Origin: Exilibacterium sp.
GTDB taxonomy: Bacteria; Pseudomonadota; Gammaproteobacteria; Pseudomonadales; Cellvibrionaceae
Length of the DNA: 64,000 bases
NCBI GenBank assembly: GCA_028280195.1
Contig: JANQMH010000052.1
Coordinates: 62,001-126,000 of the forward strand
Reading direction: 5' to 3'
Below the pieces are notes generated by a model. The model was not told the DNA's origin. It was given only the letters and a program-made list of their open reading frames with translations, and did not search any database. Within the stretch, counting starts at the first letter, position 1; every line of letters begins with the position of its first letter. The translations under genes and the position numbers were made by a program. This document shows, piece after piece, positions 55,872 to 63,412 of this stretch.

Positions 55872-56287
55872 ATCATTTTAGTTGGAAAGGCTTGCCCGCG
55901 ATATATCACTTGCAATTTGCAGCAACAATGGCAAACCGACCTCAAATGGCAAAATCCGCGCCGCCGGCTCAGGCACTCACAAATCCAGCCCAGTTGCAAA
56001 GGCGGCTTGTAGAGGATACGCGCAGGGCCATCCGCCCCTCGGGCGCGCAGCTTCGAACTATGGCGAGGGTAATTCAGAGCATCCCAAGGTAAAGTAACCT
56101 ATTGATTATATTAGGATTATTACTCTCCGCTACTCTGGTGTACCCTGTAGTTTTTGCAAAAGTGGGGCAAATTATGGGGCAGGCGCCTAACGAAGGGGAT
56201 ATTTTCCCTTTTAACTAATCTATAGACAGAATTTTGGCAATAATAATTTATAGCCATTAACTGTATTAATGTGATTACTAAGGGAAG
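55872..56287. other. Left edge of accessory island, no gene
   Basis: About 415 bp without a supportable gene. A single integron-type core site GCCTAAC occurs at 56185-56191. The last 70 bp before the inverted repeat resemble, in reverse, the sequence outside the right repeat (about 61545-61610), so the repeat similarity extends outward in diverged form. Confidence 0.5.
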
Positions 56288-56407
56288 CTGACAGTCACTT
56301 ATCGCCTATAAGCGGCCCGTCAGGGCGCTAAGATTTAACATCTACTACGGGCTGTGACCGGTCAAGGGCTGTCCTTAAGGCTGTCAAAGTTCCTTTGTCT
56401 GTTCTTT
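56288..56407 (+). repeat. 120-bp inverted repeat, left copy
   Basis: Matches the reverse complement of 61425-61544 over 120 bp without gaps and with 8 mismatches, 5 of them clustered near the outer end. The outer end is CTGACAGTC. The copies enclose 5.0 kb. No reading frame is evident within the repeat. Confidence 0.9.
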
Positions 56408-57093: not shown

Positions 57094-57453
57094 CTATTTG
57101 TCAACCCATACACGCCTGATCTCGCAGTGATTTGATGCCGAAGTAAAGTTTGGAGACATTCCATCCTGATAATTAACGCTAACTGTTTTTCCGCTCATGA
57201 ATGCCGCCAACAATAAAGAGTACACCTGCCCCATGTTTGCATTATTTGGTGCAGTACCCGCAGGTAGATAGAACCTTCCACCCGTAGGGCAAGCCTCACT
57301 CAGCCTAACAATAAGATCAAAATTATTACCCGAATATGCTGTAAAAGAATCTAAGCGAGTAATATCCGCATTAATTACGTTTGCATCCGCCATAACCAAC
57401 CCAGAAGCTATTACTAAACAGGCAGAGCATAAAATCAACCTAATTTCCTTCAT
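57094..57453 (-). CDS. Cassette-borne exported small protein
   Basis: 119 residues with a clear signal peptide ('LILCSACLVIASGLVMA'). The mature part has one Cys pair ('EACPTGGRFYLPAG' and 'NHCEIRRVWV') likely forming a disulfide. Overall pattern C...GRFYLP...AN...LLLAAFMSGK...C.I..VWV recalls short secreted proteins found in cassettes and AB5-toxin B-like folds, but I cannot assign it. It is flanked by attC-like sites, upstream 3 and downstream 2. Confidence 0.75.
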   Translation of the reverse strand: MKEIRLILCSACLVIASGLVMADANVINADITRLDSFTAYSGNNFDLIVRLSEACPTGGRFYLPAGTAPNNANMGQVYSLLLAAFMSGKTVSVNYQDGMSPNFTSASNHCEIRRVWVDK

Positions 57454-57506: not shown

Positions 57507-57590
57507 GCATAACGCCGCCATAAACGGATGCCGAAGCAACGCGTAGGCAGTCCAATGGAGGCCATGCTTTTTATGGCTGAGGCGGTCTAA
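57507..57590 (-). other. attC-like site 3, damaged end
   Basis: Right core GTTATGC (minus strand, 57513-57507) with stem GGCATCCGTTTATGG pairing to CCATAAAAAGCATGGCC. The other core is not recognisable because the 35-bp-arm hairpin begins at 57579. Confidence 0.55.
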
Positions 57591-57658
57591 TAGATCTGTA
57601 CACACCAGTTAAGAGACAATGACCTTAACTGGTGTGTACAGATCTATTAGACCGCCTC
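57579..57658. repeat. Perfect 35-bp inverted repeat with 10-base loop
   Basis: Arms 57579-57613 and 57624-57658 (starting GAGGCGGTCTAATAG) are perfectly complementary around loop AGACAATGAC. The left arm starts within attC-like site 3. There is no T-tract. A short outer pair GGCAGTCC / GGACTGCC (57546-57553, 57670-57677) surrounds it. Confidence 0.92.
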
Positions 57659-57772
57659 GATATCACGCAGGACTGCCGGAAGGACACAAATATATTGTCA
57701 ATATATCAATAGTTAAAAATAATAATCAATAGCTAATATAATCTCTCCAAACTACCTCTTAAACCAAGCTAT

Positions 57773-57997
57773 CTAGTGTAGTGTCTCATACTGTATGCGG
57801 ATTTAGCGAAGCGCTAATGGGTCAGCGGCTAGGCCCGGTTGTGCAGGCATAGTAGGCCTATATCAAGCAATCGCAACAAGGCCGATGGCCCATTAGCGCT
57901 TCGCCCGAAGGGAGTCCCATCACTGCCCGCGAGCGGCGCCTTGCCGTGAAAATTTCTGGGGCTCTAACTCTGCATACAGTATGCGACACTACACTAG
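57773..57997. mobile_element. MITE-like element
   Basis: 225 bp with 26-bp terminal inverted repeats (one mismatch; starts CTAGTGTAGTGT, ends with its complement) and inner inverted repeats CGAAGCGCTAATGGG (57807-57821) / complement (57889-57903). There is no reading frame. CTAG at both ends could be a target duplication or part of the repeat. Confidence 0.75.
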
Positions 57998-58058
57998 AAA
58001 TTCTATTATACAACACTTTTCGGTAACTAAAATTATCACCTGTGGGAGCTGCATAATC

Positions 58059-58691
58059 ATGTATAAAAAATATTTACACTCTTTATTTATGACTTTTGGT
58101 AAGTTCGTTCTAATGTTTTTCCCTCTCGCATTTCTGACAACCGGTGTCAACGCACATATGCTTCCTCATTCATTGCATATGTCTCCTCTTCCATTGGAAA
58201 TGCTCGTCGATGACAGTTCACATATCGTGGAAGCGCAGCTTATAGACATTAAAAGCCAGTGGACAAATGATAGGAAAGCAATAATCTCAAAAGCCAGGTT
58301 TAAAGTTGATTCAGTGCTATTGGGAAAAATTGGCAGTGAGATTATAACGGTCTATGCCCCGGGGGGAACTGTTGATGGAATTAGACAAATTGTCACGGGC
58401 GCCCCCACTTTTGAACCTGGGGAAAAATCCTTGCTAATGTTACGCAAGTTAAATTCCGATGAATTTAAAAAAGGCATTGACTCTGATTCATTCAATATTA
58501 CTTCTCTTTCACTGGGAAAGTTTTCGCTCGTTGTTGATAAAAATAGCGGTGAGATGAAAGCCAGGAGTAATGCCTTAAATTATTTTGATAAAGGAATAAT
58601 GACTCAATACAAATCGGGCGATTTATTAAGCAAGAGTGGCATGTCTTTAGAACAGTTACGTCAGAAAATAAAAGAACTTGCCAACAAATAA
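58059..58691 (+). CDS. Exported protein upstream of a matrixin
   Basis: 210 residues with a signal peptide ('FGKFVLMFFPLAFLTTGVNA'). The mature protein is a beta-rich domain: 'DDSSHIVEAQLIDIKSQW', 'ARFKVDSVLLGKIGSEIITVYAPGG', 'FEPGEKSLLMLRKL'. ATG 58059 fits the signal peptide and GGGAG upstream; the frame remains open back into the MITE. No function is recognised. It precedes the metalloprotease gene by 40 bp and may be its partner, chaperone or inhibitor. Confidence 0.7.
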   Translation: MYKKYLHSLFMTFGKFVLMFFPLAFLTTGVNAHMLPHSLHMSPLPLEMLVDDSSHIVEAQLIDIKSQWTNDRKAIISKARFKVDSVLLGKIGSEIITVYAPGGTVDGIRQIVTGAPTFEPGEKSLLMLRKLNSDEFKKGIDSDSFNITSLSLGKFSLVVDKNSGEMKARSNALNYFDKGIMTQYKSGDLLSKSGMSLEQLRQKIKELANK

Positions 58692-58731
58692 AGCTGTCTT
58701 TTAATACAGCTATTAACTAGAGATAAATAAA

Positions 58732-60984
58732 ATGTATAGAACAACTCAACCACAAGAAATGGAACAAGCTTTTCGAAACAGAAAGATATTCATTATATTA
58801 GCCCTATATATTGGAGCTATATTTTTCACTAGCAATAGTCTGGCTTATAGATTGACGCTGACACTTTTCCCGGGCTTTGCTTCCGCAGTTCCACCCGGTT
58901 CAGGTTTGGTAGAGCGTTGGCTAGAACGCGAAGTGCGTTTTCGAGTCAACAACAACGGGGCTGGAGATGGTGTGACATTTGATCAAACTCAGGAGGCTAT
59001 AGCAAATGCCTTCCAAAGCTGGGAGGACGTCAGCTGCTCTGATTTAAAATTCGTTTACGATGGCGGTACAGATGCAACCCGAGACGCCAACGACGGTATT
59101 AACACCAGCTATTGGACTGAAAGTGGGGGTTCCGCACACAATGGTCCTGCTGCTCTTTTCCCCGGATCACGTATGTCGTTGTTGGCAGTCGCTCTTGTTA
59201 CTGTCGCAGAAAATGGACGAATTATCGATGTGGATATTGCCTTCAACGGAGGCGATTATATTTGGTCAAATACAGGCGAAGTAAGTATTGAAGGCGTTGC
59301 TGCACATGAAATTGGTCATCTACTCGGCTTGGCTCATAGTGAATTAACTACTTTACCTGCACCGACGATGAAATCGTCGTTCCCTCAGGGCACCTCCTTC
59401 CAGCAAGCAAGTTTGGAAAAAGACGACAAAAATGGCGCCTGCTACCTGTATCAAACTGTTACAGGCAGTAGCAGCCAGGCTGCCGGAGATTTTAATGGCG
59501 ACGGATATTTGGATCTGGCCATTGGAGTGCCAGGAGAAACCGTAGGAACAAAGCTCAATGCCGGCGCTGTCAATGTTATCTATGGCTCTCCATCGGGGTT
59601 GAATGCAGCCGGAAATCAGTTATTGCACCAGGACCTTACCCACATTGACGGCGCTGCAGAAACAGAGGACCGGTTTGGGGCAGCATTGGCAATCGGTGAT
59701 TTCAATGGTGACGGATACGATGACCTCGCTATAGGCGCACCGAATGATACTGTAGTCAACCCGGCAGGAGTTACCGTGGTAGGAGCAGGTGTGGTCAACG
59801 TCATTTACGGATCAGCCACGGGACTAAATGCCGCAACCAGCCAACTATGGCACCAGGATATTGGGGGGATCGAAGACGTCGCTGAAGCTGATGACCACTA
59901 TGGAGCAGCTCTCGGGGCCGGGGATTTCAATAATGACGGTTTTGATGATCTCGCAATCGGTATCCCAAATGAAGCGATCGGTAATCTCGCTGGTGCTGGC
60001 GCCGTCAATGTTATCTATGGAGCAGGAAGCATCGGACTGAGAGACGCTGGCAATCAATTATGGCATCAGGATGTTGCCGATATAGAAGAGGTTGCTGAAA
60101 CCGGTGATCAATTTGGCGCGTCAATCGCGGTCGGGGATTTTAATAACGATGGCAATGATGACTTGGCCGTAGGCGTGCCAAAGGAAGACATTGGCAATGT
60201 CGCCGATGCCGGTGCTGTTAATGTTTTCTACGGTACATCGGTGGGATTGAACGCCAGCAATAATCAACTATGGCATCAAGACATTGCCAATATAGAAGGA
60301 GTGTCAGAAACTGGAGATCTGTTTGGCTCTTCTCTCACTGCGGGAGACTTCAACAACGATGGCCGTCACGACCTCGCTATAGGCGCACCGAATAGTACTA
60401 TAGTCAACGCGGCGGGAGTCAACTTGGCAGGAGCAGGTGTGGTCAACGTCATTTATGGAGCAGCATCGGGACTAAGTGCCAGCAACAACCAGTTATGGCA
60501 TCAGGATATTGCAAATATTGAGGAAGTTGCGGAAGCCAACGACCAATTTGGGGCCACTCTCAGCACTGGGGACTTTAATTCCGATGGTCACGATGATCTC
60601 GCAATCGGCGTACCAAAAGAAGCAATTGGCAACGTTTCCGCTGCGGGTGCTGTCAACATTATTTACGGTGCAGCATCTGGATTAAGCGCTTCTGGAAATC
60701 AAGTCTGGCACCAGGATTCTGCGGGCATAGAAGATGCCGTTGGGCAAAACGACCAATTTGGTGCTGCACTTATATCCGGAGATTTTAACGGTGATAGCGC
60801 AGATGATCTGGCAGTCGGTGTAAGCCATGAAACGGTCGGAACCATTGTTGAAGCCGGTGCTGTTAACACCATTTACGGATCCGTAACCGGATTAAGCGAG
60901 AATGGTAACCAGCTGTGGCATCAGGATATTGATGGCATCGAAGGTGTTTGTGAGGAAAATAACAGATTTGGCTCTGCTCTCTAG
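58732..60984 (+). CDS. Matrixin-like metalloprotease with seven-bladed FG-GAP propeller
   Basis: 750 residues. An N-terminal signal/anchor helix (about 20-38) precedes an M10-type zinc protease domain with HEIGHLLGLAH at 192-202. Seven FG-GAP blades follow, each with a Ca-binding D-x-N-x-D-(G/S) loop (for example 'GDFNGDGYLDLAIG') and spaced about 65 residues. Seven blades make a complete integrin-alpha-like propeller, and the last short strand 'NRFGSAL' can close it, so the C-terminus is probably intact. It should be secreted and act on extracellular protein. A second possible ATG lies at 58759. Confidence 0.9.
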   Translation: MYRTTQPQEMEQAFRNRKIFIILALYIGAIFFTSNSLAYRLTLTLFPGFASAVPPGSGLVERWLEREVRFRVNNNGAGDGVTFDQTQEAIANAFQSWEDVSCSDLKFVYDGGTDATRDANDGINTSYWTESGGSAHNGPAALFPGSRMSLLAVALVTVAENGRIIDVDIAFNGGDYIWSNTGEVSIEGVAAHEIGHLLGLAHSELTTLPAPTMKSSFPQGTSFQQASLEKDDKNGACYLYQTVTGSSSQAAGDFNGDGYLDLAIGVPGETVGTKLNAGAVNVIYGSPSGLNAAGNQLLHQDLTHIDGAAETEDRFGAALAIGDFNGDGYDDLAIGAPNDTVVNPAGVTVVGAGVVNVIYGSATGLNAATSQLWHQDIGGIEDVAEADDHYGAALGAGDFNNDGFDDLAIGIPNEAIGNLAGAGAVNVIYGAGSIGLRDAGNQLWHQDVADIEEVAETGDQFGASIAVGDFNNDGNDDLAVGVPKEDIGNVADAGAVNVFYGTSVGLNASNNQLWHQDIANIEGVSETGDLFGSSLTAGDFNNDGRHDLAIGAPNSTIVNAAGVNLAGAGVVNVIYGAASGLSASNNQLWHQDIANIEEVAEANDQFGATLSTGDFNSDGHDDLAIGVPKEAIGNVSAAGAVNIIYGAASGLSASGNQVWHQDSAGIEDAVGQNDQFGAALISGDFNGDSADDLAVGVSHETVGTIVEAGAVNTIYGSVTGLSENGNQLWHQDIDGIEGVCEENNRFGSAL

Positions 60985-61081
60985 ACCGGGATAAGACTGG
61001 CCAGGACCCAAGGGGCCCGGCCCTCTGTATTATTGGTCTGCAACAAGCTCGTTTAACGGTAGCCAGTTATCCCGCCAGCCT

Positions 61082-61118
61082 GCTCATTCATTCGCAAAAA
61101 CTCTGCGAATGAATGAGC
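61082..61118 (+). terminator. Hairpin terminator after the protease gene
   Basis: Perfect 15-bp arms GCTCATTCATTCGCA / complement with a seven-base loop, followed by TTTC. It starts about 100 bp after the stop. A bulged inverted repeat (60987-61000 / 61062-61074) lies between. Confidence 0.7.
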
Positions 61119-61226
61119 TTTCAAATAAAGAATTTAATACTCAGTGACTACTGAGGTTATGTTGAAGATATGTATGGAAGAAAAAATCTTCATTTCTGGG
61201 TAGTTAATCCTCAGTAAAAGCTGAGG

Positions 61227-61325
61227 CTAGGTTTCGTTCGCTTGCCCACGAAAAACCCATTGTGTTAACAACCATCCAATGGAGTAAACATCTTCATATG
61301 ACTTTATTGTGTACTGTTGAATCAT
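61227..61325 (-). pseudogene. Truncated FRG-domain gene
   Basis: 33 codons with a good ribosome-binding site (GGAGAAG) starting at ATG 61325: 'SYEDVYSIGWLLTQWVFRGQANET' then stop. The FRG signature WxFRGQA is reached and the rest of the domain is lost. Small hairpins CCTCAG/CTGAGG directly follow the stop. The rest of 61119-61424 shows no further gene. Confidence 0.65.
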
Positions 61326-61424
61326 AGTTACTTCTCCAATGTCCCCTTTTAGGCTTGTAAGCGATTCATACTACTCAGTCCATTTTGGATAATCAATGGG
61401 ATTTATTGAGCGACAGCTTAGAGC

Positions 61425-61544
61425 AAAGAACAGACAAAGGAACTTTGACAGCCTTAAGGACAGCTCTTGACCGGTCACAGCCCGTAGTAGATGTTAAATC
61501 TTAGCGCCCTGATTGGCCGCTTATAGGCAGTTACAGACTGTCAG
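61425..61544 (-). repeat. 120-bp inverted repeat, right copy
   Basis: Reverse-complement partner of 56288-56407 (112 of 120 identical). The outer end is GACTGTCAG. It lies 110 bp downstream of the immunity gene stop. Confidence 0.9.
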
Positions 61545-61556
61545 ATTATATAGAAA

Positions 61557-61654: not shown

Positions 61655-62584
61655 CTATCCATCAAACCTGCTTAACCAGCGTTGAGTAAACGCTTTATTG
61701 TCCTCTCCTTTGGGATCATAAAACAGGGTTTTATTAAAGTCAGCCCGAACAGGCTTTAGAGCTTTGCCTAATGCCACATAAGCAGGTGGCAGTTGATCCG
61801 GCGAACCCAGCTCTGGTTGTTGCCCCGCCTGAAAAATAATGCCGTTGTTGTATTCGCACTGCCAAACCTGCGAGTCTAAATTAGCTAATACCGCTTGTGT
61901 GCCACCAGCTTTTTCAAGTAAGCGATGAGAAACCGCCGTGAGGAAATTTACAGATTTAATGCCATTTTCACAGTTTGAAGATGTGGTATTTAAACTGTAG
62001 GCATCCAAACCTGGATAGGCCATTAACACATTACCAATGACTTCGCAGGCTGCATTCCTGCTACCTACATCTGAAGGAAATATGGCACTGTACCCAGCAT
62101 AGGCGTGCTCGACATTCAGAGCATTACATAAGGTGGCAAACTGGCGAATAAAGCTTTCCATGCCGATTTGTTCAAGAATTACGACCGGATAGGTTAATAA
62201 TAAGTAACCCAGGTAATTGGCACGCATCACTTTTTCGGCCAAAGCAATCGACGACCAGCATGAAGCCACTCCATTAATTCCGCTACCCGTATTAAATTGA
62301 AAGTCTGGTTTGTCATCTACCATCGACTGCAGAAGACTTGCTTCTGGTAACTCATCTTTTTTTATCTGTCGAAATTGTTTGTCACCGTCAATATAGTATT
62401 GTACGAGTTGGCCTTGAGCTTGCTGGCAATATTGCTCAATAGCATCAATCAACGCTAGCCGTCGTTCCCTCTTGCCCGGTGAGCCAAAATAGAACTCCAT
62501 CGATAAACCCAACACCGCAGCAGGAGCGCCATCCTTGTAATATGCGAGAGGCCGCCGGCTTAGCTCTTTTGAGGATAAGGTCAT
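61655..62584 (-). CDS. DUF3396 type VI immunity protein (TsiV-like)
   Basis: 309 residues resembling the DUF3396/TsiV family that neutralises type VI effectors: 'VLGLSMEFYFGSPGKRERRLALIDAIEQYC', 'EHAYAGYSAIFPSD', 'GIKSVNFLTAVSHRLLEKAGG'. It has no signal peptide, consistent with protection against a cytoplasmic nuclease. Ribosome-binding site GGGAGA. It starts 21 bp after the toxin gene stop, in the expected effector-immunity order. Confidence 0.82.
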   Translation of the reverse strand: MTLSSKELSRRPLAYYKDGAPAAVLGLSMEFYFGSPGKRERRLALIDAIEQYCQQAQGQLVQYYIDGDKQFRQIKKDELPEASLLQSMVDDKPDFQFNTGSGINGVASCWSSIALAEKVMRANYLGYLLLTYPVVILEQIGMESFIRQFATLCNALNVEHAYAGYSAIFPSDVGSRNAACEVIGNVLMAYPGLDAYSLNTTSSNCENGIKSVNFLTAVSHRLLEKAGGTQAVLANLDSQVWQCEYNNGIIFQAGQQPELGSPDQLPPAYVALGKALKPVRADFNKTLFYDPKGEDNKAFTQRWLSRFDG

Positions 62585-62605
62585 GGAATTTTCTCCCTTC
62601 AGTGC

Positions 62606-63412
62606 TTATTCCACTGGTAGCATAGGATTGTCACAGTTGCATTGGCTTTCACCTTTTTGTTTCGGTTTACCTCCTACACGATAAACTTGGTAATTATCAA
62701 TACCTCCGGCAATGTCAGTATATGCTTTGTCTTGTTTCTCATCCCGTTGATCACCCCCAAACTTCATCTCAATCACCTTATCTATATTCCCTTCTCCCGG
62801 CGGTTCATTTGAATCTGAAACCATAACCACATCTGTGCGACGTAAATAACCTAACCCTGGTGTAAACCCCTCCACTTCTTTTTTAACGCGCCCCATCGGA
62901 AAACGGGAAGGTTCGGTGGTATTTGCGTCATTCTTATCCCGATGCATAAAGGGTGTTGGAATGCCGGTAGTTTCTTTGTTCATATTCCACCAAATTTCGG
63001 ATTTATAGCGACTTTTGTAATTCATGGCCTTATCTGCCTCTTTAAATACGCTGTCAATACACTGCTGCTTTAGTTCCTGTGCACCTGAACCAGAAATAGG
63101 GTTTTGAAGACAGCAACAGCTCACCGCGCACAATACGCCGTTATCAATCAATTCAGCCTGCTTCGCGGAATCCGCACCTGCCATCGTCTGTTCTACGCCA
63201 AGTTCCCGCTGTGAATCGCTAGGATCAACTTGATTGCCTTCCCTTATTTTGCGGGCTTGTTCTTCTTCTGCAATCTTCCGGGCTTTCTCAATAGCGTTGG
63301 GGACGCATTTTTGAATGGCGTTCTGATCTTCTTTGCTGCGAGGAATACCATTGATTGAAAGGGATGCGCCAATAACTTGACCGACACATTTATCCTGACA
63401 GGGTGCGCTCAT
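62606..63412 (-). CDS. VRR-NUC-type nuclease effector (TseV-like)
   Basis: 268 residues. The C-terminal third shows a PD-(D/E)xK/VRR-NUC-like pattern: D194 in 'RRTDVV', E215-x-K217 in 'VIEMKFGGD' and Q227-x3-Y231. The N-terminal part is Cys-rich ('CAVSCCCLQN') and charged, without a PAAR or Rhs domain, so delivery would need a separate carrier. Start follows AAGGAAGG. Known TseV effectors are DNA-damaging nucleases paired with DUF3396 proteins, as here. Assignment is by motif and context. Confidence 0.75.
   Translation of the reverse strand: MSAPCQDKCVGQVIGASLSINGIPRSKEDQNAIQKCVPNAIEKARKIAEEEQARKIREGNQVDPSDSQRELGVEQTMAGADSAKQAELIDNGVLCAVSCCCLQNPISGSGAQELKQQCIDSVFKEADKAMNYKSRYKSEIWWNMNKETTGIPTPFMHRDKNDANTTEPSRFPMGRVKKEVEGFTPGLGYLRRTDVVMVSDSNEPPGEGNIDKVIEMKFGGDQRDEKQDKAYTDIAGGIDNYQVYRVGGKPKQKGESQCNCDNPMLPVE

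Follow-up and report, generated by a model that had tools for sequence, protein, structure and literature searches.

A putatively secreted matrixin and a small protein of predicted TIMP fold, probably its cognate regulator, are encoded side by side in a 64,000-nucleotide stretch of DNA from Exilibacterium sp. (contig JANQMH010000052.1, positions 62,001 to 126,000; the whole stretch is here called the window, and coordinates refer to it). The partner gene (58059-58691, + strand) is an open reading frame (ORF) from the ATG at 58059 that encodes 210 amino acids, none of them cysteine. A 40-bp spacer (58692-58731, partner stop to protease start) separates it from the gene for a 750-residue matrixin with an FG-GAP tail (58732-60984, + strand). 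The computational observations are an M10 domain in the protease, the predicted fold of the partner, same-strand linkage of the two genes across genomes, a natural fusion of the two, and co-inheritance. The best explanation, by which we infer inhibition, is that the partner would be a cognate inhibitor plugging the catalytic cleft of a matrixin that lacks a prodomain.

The catalytic domain of the protease (residues 62-240; 58915-59451) matches Peptidase_M10 (PF00413, Pfam) at 46.9 bits against a cut-off of 24. Its zinc-binding motif, HEIGHLLGLAH (residues 192-202; 59305-59337), has the full HExxHxxGxxH pattern, and H192, H196 and H202, together with the Met-turn methionine 213 (59368-59370), are nearly invariant columns in an alignment with other matrixins, which are themselves mostly neighbours of partner genes. 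The AlphaFold pLDDT of residues 61-240 is mostly 76-94, falling to near 50 in the loop at 131-150. The best fold match of the domain is karilysin (2xs4 chain A; Z 18.0, root-mean-square deviation 2.9, 159 residues aligned; the human matrix metalloproteinases (MMPs) come next), and the matches include 8b2q (karilysin with potempin A) and two enzyme chains of MMP:TIMP complexes, 2j0t chain A (MMP-1:TIMP-1) and 3ma2 chain D. Only 23 residues, none of them cysteine, lie between the predicted N-terminal signal segment (residues 1-38; 58732-58845) and the catalytic domain. The protease thus has no classical prodomain, cysteine switch or zymogen lock, and so differs from the animal-type MMPs, in which a prodomain carries the switch.

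The remainder of the protease is a tail of seven FG-GAP repeats (PF01839, 188.5 bits over 7 stretches in Pfam; about residues 250-750, 59479-60981, with a DNA period of about 210-225 nt). An earlier note on this DNA had recognized the M10 domain and the seven repeats, and its domains, coordinates and frames are borne out. It had also called the propeller complete, which the count of seven repeats would suggest; the AlphaFold model after residue 250 is poor (10-residue blocks at pLDDT 27-71), and closure of the ring is therefore putative. In the ORFs of FG-GAP relatives inspected at six loci there was no HExxH.

The partner begins with a hydrophobic helix that ends at an AxA-type site, and the rest of the AlphaFold model is mostly strands. 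Its predicted signal peptide (residues 1-32, ending VNA; 58059-58154) is supported by both the sequence and the model helix, in agreement with the earlier description of an exported, beta-rich protein encoded 40 bp from the protease. The single sequence gave no convincing family match. Relatives were collected from whole genomes and from one named scan; 40 were aligned, and none of the 40 matched any Pfam or NCBIfam family at E 0.01. The model built from the 40-row alignment has a mean pLDDT of 82.5, with 92-98 at residues 51-130, and it ends in a helix (residues 197-209; 58647-58685). By hhalign and VIA-align, residues 39-160 (58173-58538) form a TIMP-like beta-barrel core.

Searched against the PDB with Foldseek, the model returned at ranks 1-19 only the agrin NtA domain, TIMP-1, TIMP-2 or the NTR domain of PCOLCE1, at E 2.0e-4 to 1.1e-2. 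VIA-align gave Z of 11.6 for NtA, 10.3 for N-TIMP-3, 9.9 for TIMP-2 and 9.7 for TIMP-1, and its best 50 rows were all NtA, TIMP, PCOLCE1 NTR, or chains of complement C3, C4, C5 or cobra-venom factor, with the C3/C4/C5 chains interleaved among the TIMP rows from Z 10.2 downwards. The predicted model thus has the NTR/OB-type barrel of the TIMP family (PF00965). Among the fold matches of the partner are also the inhibitor chains from 2j0t and 3ma2; since the enzyme chains of the same two entries match the protease, these MMP:TIMP complexes match the pair on both sides. The partner had been described as of unknown role. Its predicted TIMP/NTR fold points instead to a cognate matrixin inhibitor.

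The alignments also bear on where the partner would meet the protease. hhalign places partner residue 39 opposite Cys1 of small bacterial TIMP-like proteins that have a Cys-x-Cys (CxC) motif, and VIA-align places residue 40 opposite TIMP residue 2; many TIMP rows in VIA-align begin at exactly this point (model residue 40, TIMP residue 2). Gly102, which is the sole invariant residue in the 40-member alignment besides Met1, forms with Gly103 a stretch (58362-58367) that hhalign sets beside the region of the later cysteine in the CxC proteins, presumably the C-D loop of TIMPs.

An 18-row partner profile had found eight small bacterial proteins, six of them with CxC after the signal peptide, and hhalign relates the partner profile to these eight at 98.4% probability. 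Three of the eight match Pfam TIMP at E <= 0.5, and at least one (L060) exceeds its cut-off, at 26.1 bits against 23.1. Small proteins with CxC and TIMP-like sequence are L101, L103, L105, L107, L060 and L061; the first four, from the family draw of genomes described below, have no M10 match within 3 kb among the matches listed. A Pfam TIMP search of 249 bacterial genomes matched none, and its control matched nowhere either, so that search is uninformative on absence.

Several observations weigh against the assignment to TIMP-type inhibitors. The fold matches are moderate, with just four Foldseek rows at E <= 0.001 and TM-scores by target of about 0.3-0.55. Pfam TIMP or NTR is matched by 0 of the 40 partners at E 0.01, and when the partner profile was run against PDB sequences, no chain of a TIMP came up at E <= 1. 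The Cys-x-Cys at the mature N-terminus and the disulfides of TIMPs are absent, as the cysteine-free window partner has L39-H40-M41 there. The NTR fold is moreover shared by proteins other than protease inhibitors, and the top match, agrin NtA, is a laminin binder by its entry title. Finally, since the eight small proteins were retrieved with the partner's own profile, their link is supporting rather than independent.

The linkage of partner and matrixin is evidence that the two genes belong together. The earlier note had proposed that the idea would fall if the small gene were not conserved beside such proteases; it clearly is. A single-sequence search of 58 relatives found the partner in 5, each time with an M10 match on the same strand within about 1.3 kb downstream (5/5; in G056 a 173-residue ORF sits between the two genes). 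In a draw of 274 genomes from the class, 14 of 16 partner matches, counted by eye, had an adjacent same-strand M10 match (E <= 0.001), some of these being under the Pfam cut-off and two (G079 and G226) coming from one genus; the exceptions were a dubious match (L054) and L048, an ORF that has HExxH after its partner part but no Pfam M10 match. A draw of 144 genomes from the family yielded 64 partner matches in 50 genomes. Among the 57 strong ones (E up to 1.1e-9), 51 lay no more than 3 kb from an M10 match (E <= 0.01) on the same strand, downstream in 43 and upstream only in 8. The remaining six all lie in genomes with further weak M10 matches beyond those listed, and none of the seven weaker partner matches (E 2.6e-6 to 9.7e-4) is within 3 kb of M10 among the matches listed. 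A few genomes, G000, G001, G016 and G028 among them, occur in more than one draw. At about one listed M10 match per 4-5 Mb genome, chance adjacency would by our arithmetic be well under 1%. The converse relation is looser and counts against strict pairing: 58 of the 150 M10 matches listed for the family have a partner match within 3 kb and 92 do not. Weak profile matches were not counted as family members (L054, the HlyD-type L062 and L064, and the small secreted L059-L061 and L063), and neither were the seven weaker matches of the family draw.

In one genome (G469) the two proteins are a single 708-residue ORF, with the partner (E 6.3e-16) N-terminal to PF00413 (27.5 bits). The Exilibacterium genome itself has a second partner-matrixin pair, on contig C4. 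Variations on the arrangement include several matrixin genes in a run around one partner gene (L116 in G801:C429, and G010:C15) and three partners (L085, L091, L099) that are encoded after their protease and have a long extension and a predicted C-terminal membrane-spanning segment.

Partner and catalytic domain also diverge in parallel. The distances that separate the partner cores track those that separate the catalytic domains, with Pearson 0.82 and Spearman 0.43 for 39 pairs and Pearson 0.68 and Spearman 0.38 for a thinned set of 25, and in neither set did any of 2000 permutations reach the Pearson value; shared ancestry contributes part of this correlation. For the pair on contig C4, the nearest of the 39 is L051, from a genome of another family, for partner and protease alike, and for the window pair it is L002 for both. 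The tails behave differently. Among ten other protease or fusion ORFs examined with Pfam, eight have M10 over the cut-off, and the tails consist of Ig/fn3/PKD modules, nidogen plus PPC, VWA, TIG/Big, TSP3-like repeats (below the cut-off) or no named module. FG-GAP was found in 0 of the 10, nor did a motif search see an FG-GAP-like motif in two very long neighbours outside the ten (L113, L114); it is just the form that a variable tail takes in the window protein. Inheritance of the partner goes with the catalytic domain, not with the tail at the C-terminus. The propeller was accordingly set aside as the main point. The earlier interpretation was right that the two genes belong together, but misplaced its emphasis on the propeller, since the small gene is the remarkable part; binding of host matrix or cell surfaces by the propeller is possible.

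Same-strand linkage, the partner-first order (M10 downstream in 43 of 51) and divergence in step with the catalytic domain would fit equally well a secretion or folding chaperone, a TIMP-fold protein that binds the catalytic domain in the periplasm, aids its folding and hands it over to an exporter, inhibition not being its main role. The membrane-spanning segment predicted at the C-terminus of L085, L091 and L099 would suit such a function too. Yet known metzincin inhibitors have the fold predicted for the partner, the mature N-terminus lies mostly at the inhibitory position, and in the fused genome the partner occupies the N-terminal site of a prodomain-like inhibitor, all of which make a chaperone rather unlikely.

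Animal TIMPs inhibit through the free amino end of Cys1, together with the Thr/Ser2 side chain. In 34 of the 40 aligned partners an AXA-like (signal-peptidase-like) site stands directly before the Cys1-equivalent residue, a count that depends on the alignment and does not include the window partner, and 23 of the 40 have Ser or Thr as the second residue. As counter-evidence, the AXA test fails in 6 of 40 rows, and in 17 of 40 the second residue is neither Ser nor Thr. The window partner, moreover, is without cysteine, has His as its second residue and carries six additional residues at its N-terminus (HMLPHS); L004, L086, L087 and L091 have extra residues as well. With HMLPHS ahead of the TIMP-residue-1 position, a further trim or a variant wedge is predicted for the window partner.

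The extra residues could alternatively be cut by the protease, as in a scheme in which the partner is a substrate and the freed fragment is active, for example on cell walls. In Listeria, a TIMP-like lipoprotein, Tim, is cut by the metzincin Mtz, and the phenotypes require active Mtz (PMC8235301). Here 34 of 40 partners have no N-terminal extension to cut, and the window partner, being cysteine-free, has no lipobox cysteine; a substrate role is very unlikely.

The simplest reading is thus a TIMP-like wedge that would hold the matrixin inactive in the envelope. The partner would be exported and fold in the periplasm, where its processed N-terminus, with the Gly-Gly loop next to it, may be wedged, as in TIMPs, into the catalytic cleft over the zinc. 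It would keep the protease inactive until this is out of the cell or the cell's own envelope is protected, and the seven-repeat FG-GAP tail may direct the released protease towards a surface or a matrix.

Pairs of this general kind have been described before. The animal MMP-TIMP pairs (2j0t, 3ma2) share with the window proteins both the M10 catalytic fold and the inhibitor fold, but the window partner is cysteine-free and has no Pfam TIMP match, the protease is without prodomain and cysteine switch, and the two genes are adjacent. A bacterial parallel is Mtz-Tim, a metzincin and a TIMP-like lipoprotein that are conserved as a pair in Gram-positive bacteria; its authors found that TIMP-like proteins had not been recorded from bacteria before (PMC8235301). 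As in Listeria, a secreted metzincin stands beside a TIMP-like partner and is kept with it (here for 51 of 57 strong matches). In Mtz-Tim the protease gene comes first, Tim is a lipoprotein with a cleaved N-terminal part, and the pair is phage-associated; here the partner mostly comes first (43 of 51), the bacteria are Gammaproteobacteria, M10 is matched by Pfam, and the window partner has no lipobox cysteine, is not of lipoprotein type and has no phage or plasmid match. An origin of the partner in phages or plasmids was considered and rejected, as tblastn against phage and plasmid collections gave no match and a viral structure library gave low-TM matches only. One point from Listeria counts against inhibition: Mtz cleaves Tim, and Tim is not shown to inhibit Mtz (PMC8235301).

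In Tannerella, the genes of specific inhibitors, the potempins, directly precede those of the KLIKK proteases; potempins differ from the present partner in being lipoproteins (PMC7296668). Potempin A and karilysin resemble the window pair in that the inhibitor gene stands before the protease gene, and karilysin is the best catalytic-domain fold match. Potempin A (PotA) is absent from the fold matches listed for the partner, and no potempin-named PDB sequence matched at E <= 1, which is not evidence against kinship. The alkaline protease AprA of Pseudomonas is of the serralysin type. With its inhibitor AprI it offers another Gram-negative metzincin with an endogenous periplasmic inhibitor (PMC8235301). 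Given Mtz-Tim and the potempin-KLIKK pairs, the principle is already known in bacteria. The open-licence literature searched held no report of a proteobacterial TIMP-like/metzincin pair or of an FG-GAP matrixin, and named no such pair besides that of Listeria among the matches listed; in it, a family of TIMP-fold proteins that is cysteine-free, accompanies M10 proteases in Gammaproteobacteria and also exists as a fusion appears to be undescribed.

Downstream of the protease lies a pair of type VI secretion system (T6SS) character (61655-63412, - strand), convergent with the matrixin genes, in which a TsiV-type immunity gene (61655-62584; PF11876, 119 bits) follows a gene with weak VRR_NUC similarity (62606-63412; 14.5 bits against a cut-off of 23.8). 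This vicinity, and the MMP-like effectors of T6SS reported in PMC13340143, which have immunity proteins resembling potempin A, would suit a protease aimed at competitors with the partner as its periplasmic immunity protein. The matrixin, though, has its own N-terminal signal segment, Pfam matches neither PAAR nor VgrG in it, and the TsiV gene is on the opposite strand, so that an effector-immunity pair is highly improbable.

The region holds several repeated elements. Inverted repeats of 123 nt (56285-56407 and 61425-61547, 93% complementary) flank a 5.3-kb stretch that contains the pair; a genome search found just these two copies, which may bound a segment that was inserted or can invert. 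Within this stretch are a palindrome with perfect 35-bp arms (57579-57658) and an element of 227 bp whose inverted ends measure 35 bp (57772-57998), shortly before the start of the partner gene; neither has a further copy in the genome. A small exported-looking protein with DUF5992 (31.5 bits against a cut-off of 23.8) is encoded at 57094-57453 (- strand). Promoter-like sites in 57700-61400 numbered 7 against 7.0 in shuffles, which is no excess, and base composition offered nothing decisive.

MMPs and TIMPs are a textbook pair in animals, and the bacterial pairs, small and probably easy to express, make it possible to test directly how TIMP-type inhibition works, how specific it is and where it came from. 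For a family of which none of 40 members has a Pfam or NCBIfam match a function is now predicted, which helps the annotation of many secreted matrixins. More broadly, it is conceivable, if on balance doubtful, that the window pair represents a general Gram-negative MMP-TIMP system, a large TIMP-fold family in which each member would be cognate to its own matrixin, with the N-terminus exposed by signal peptidase at the position of TIMP Cys1 and with fusion in some lineages as a "TIMP-type prodomain". If that is true, the MMPs and TIMPs of animals would form a single branch of a protease-control module that is ancient or was shared horizontally.

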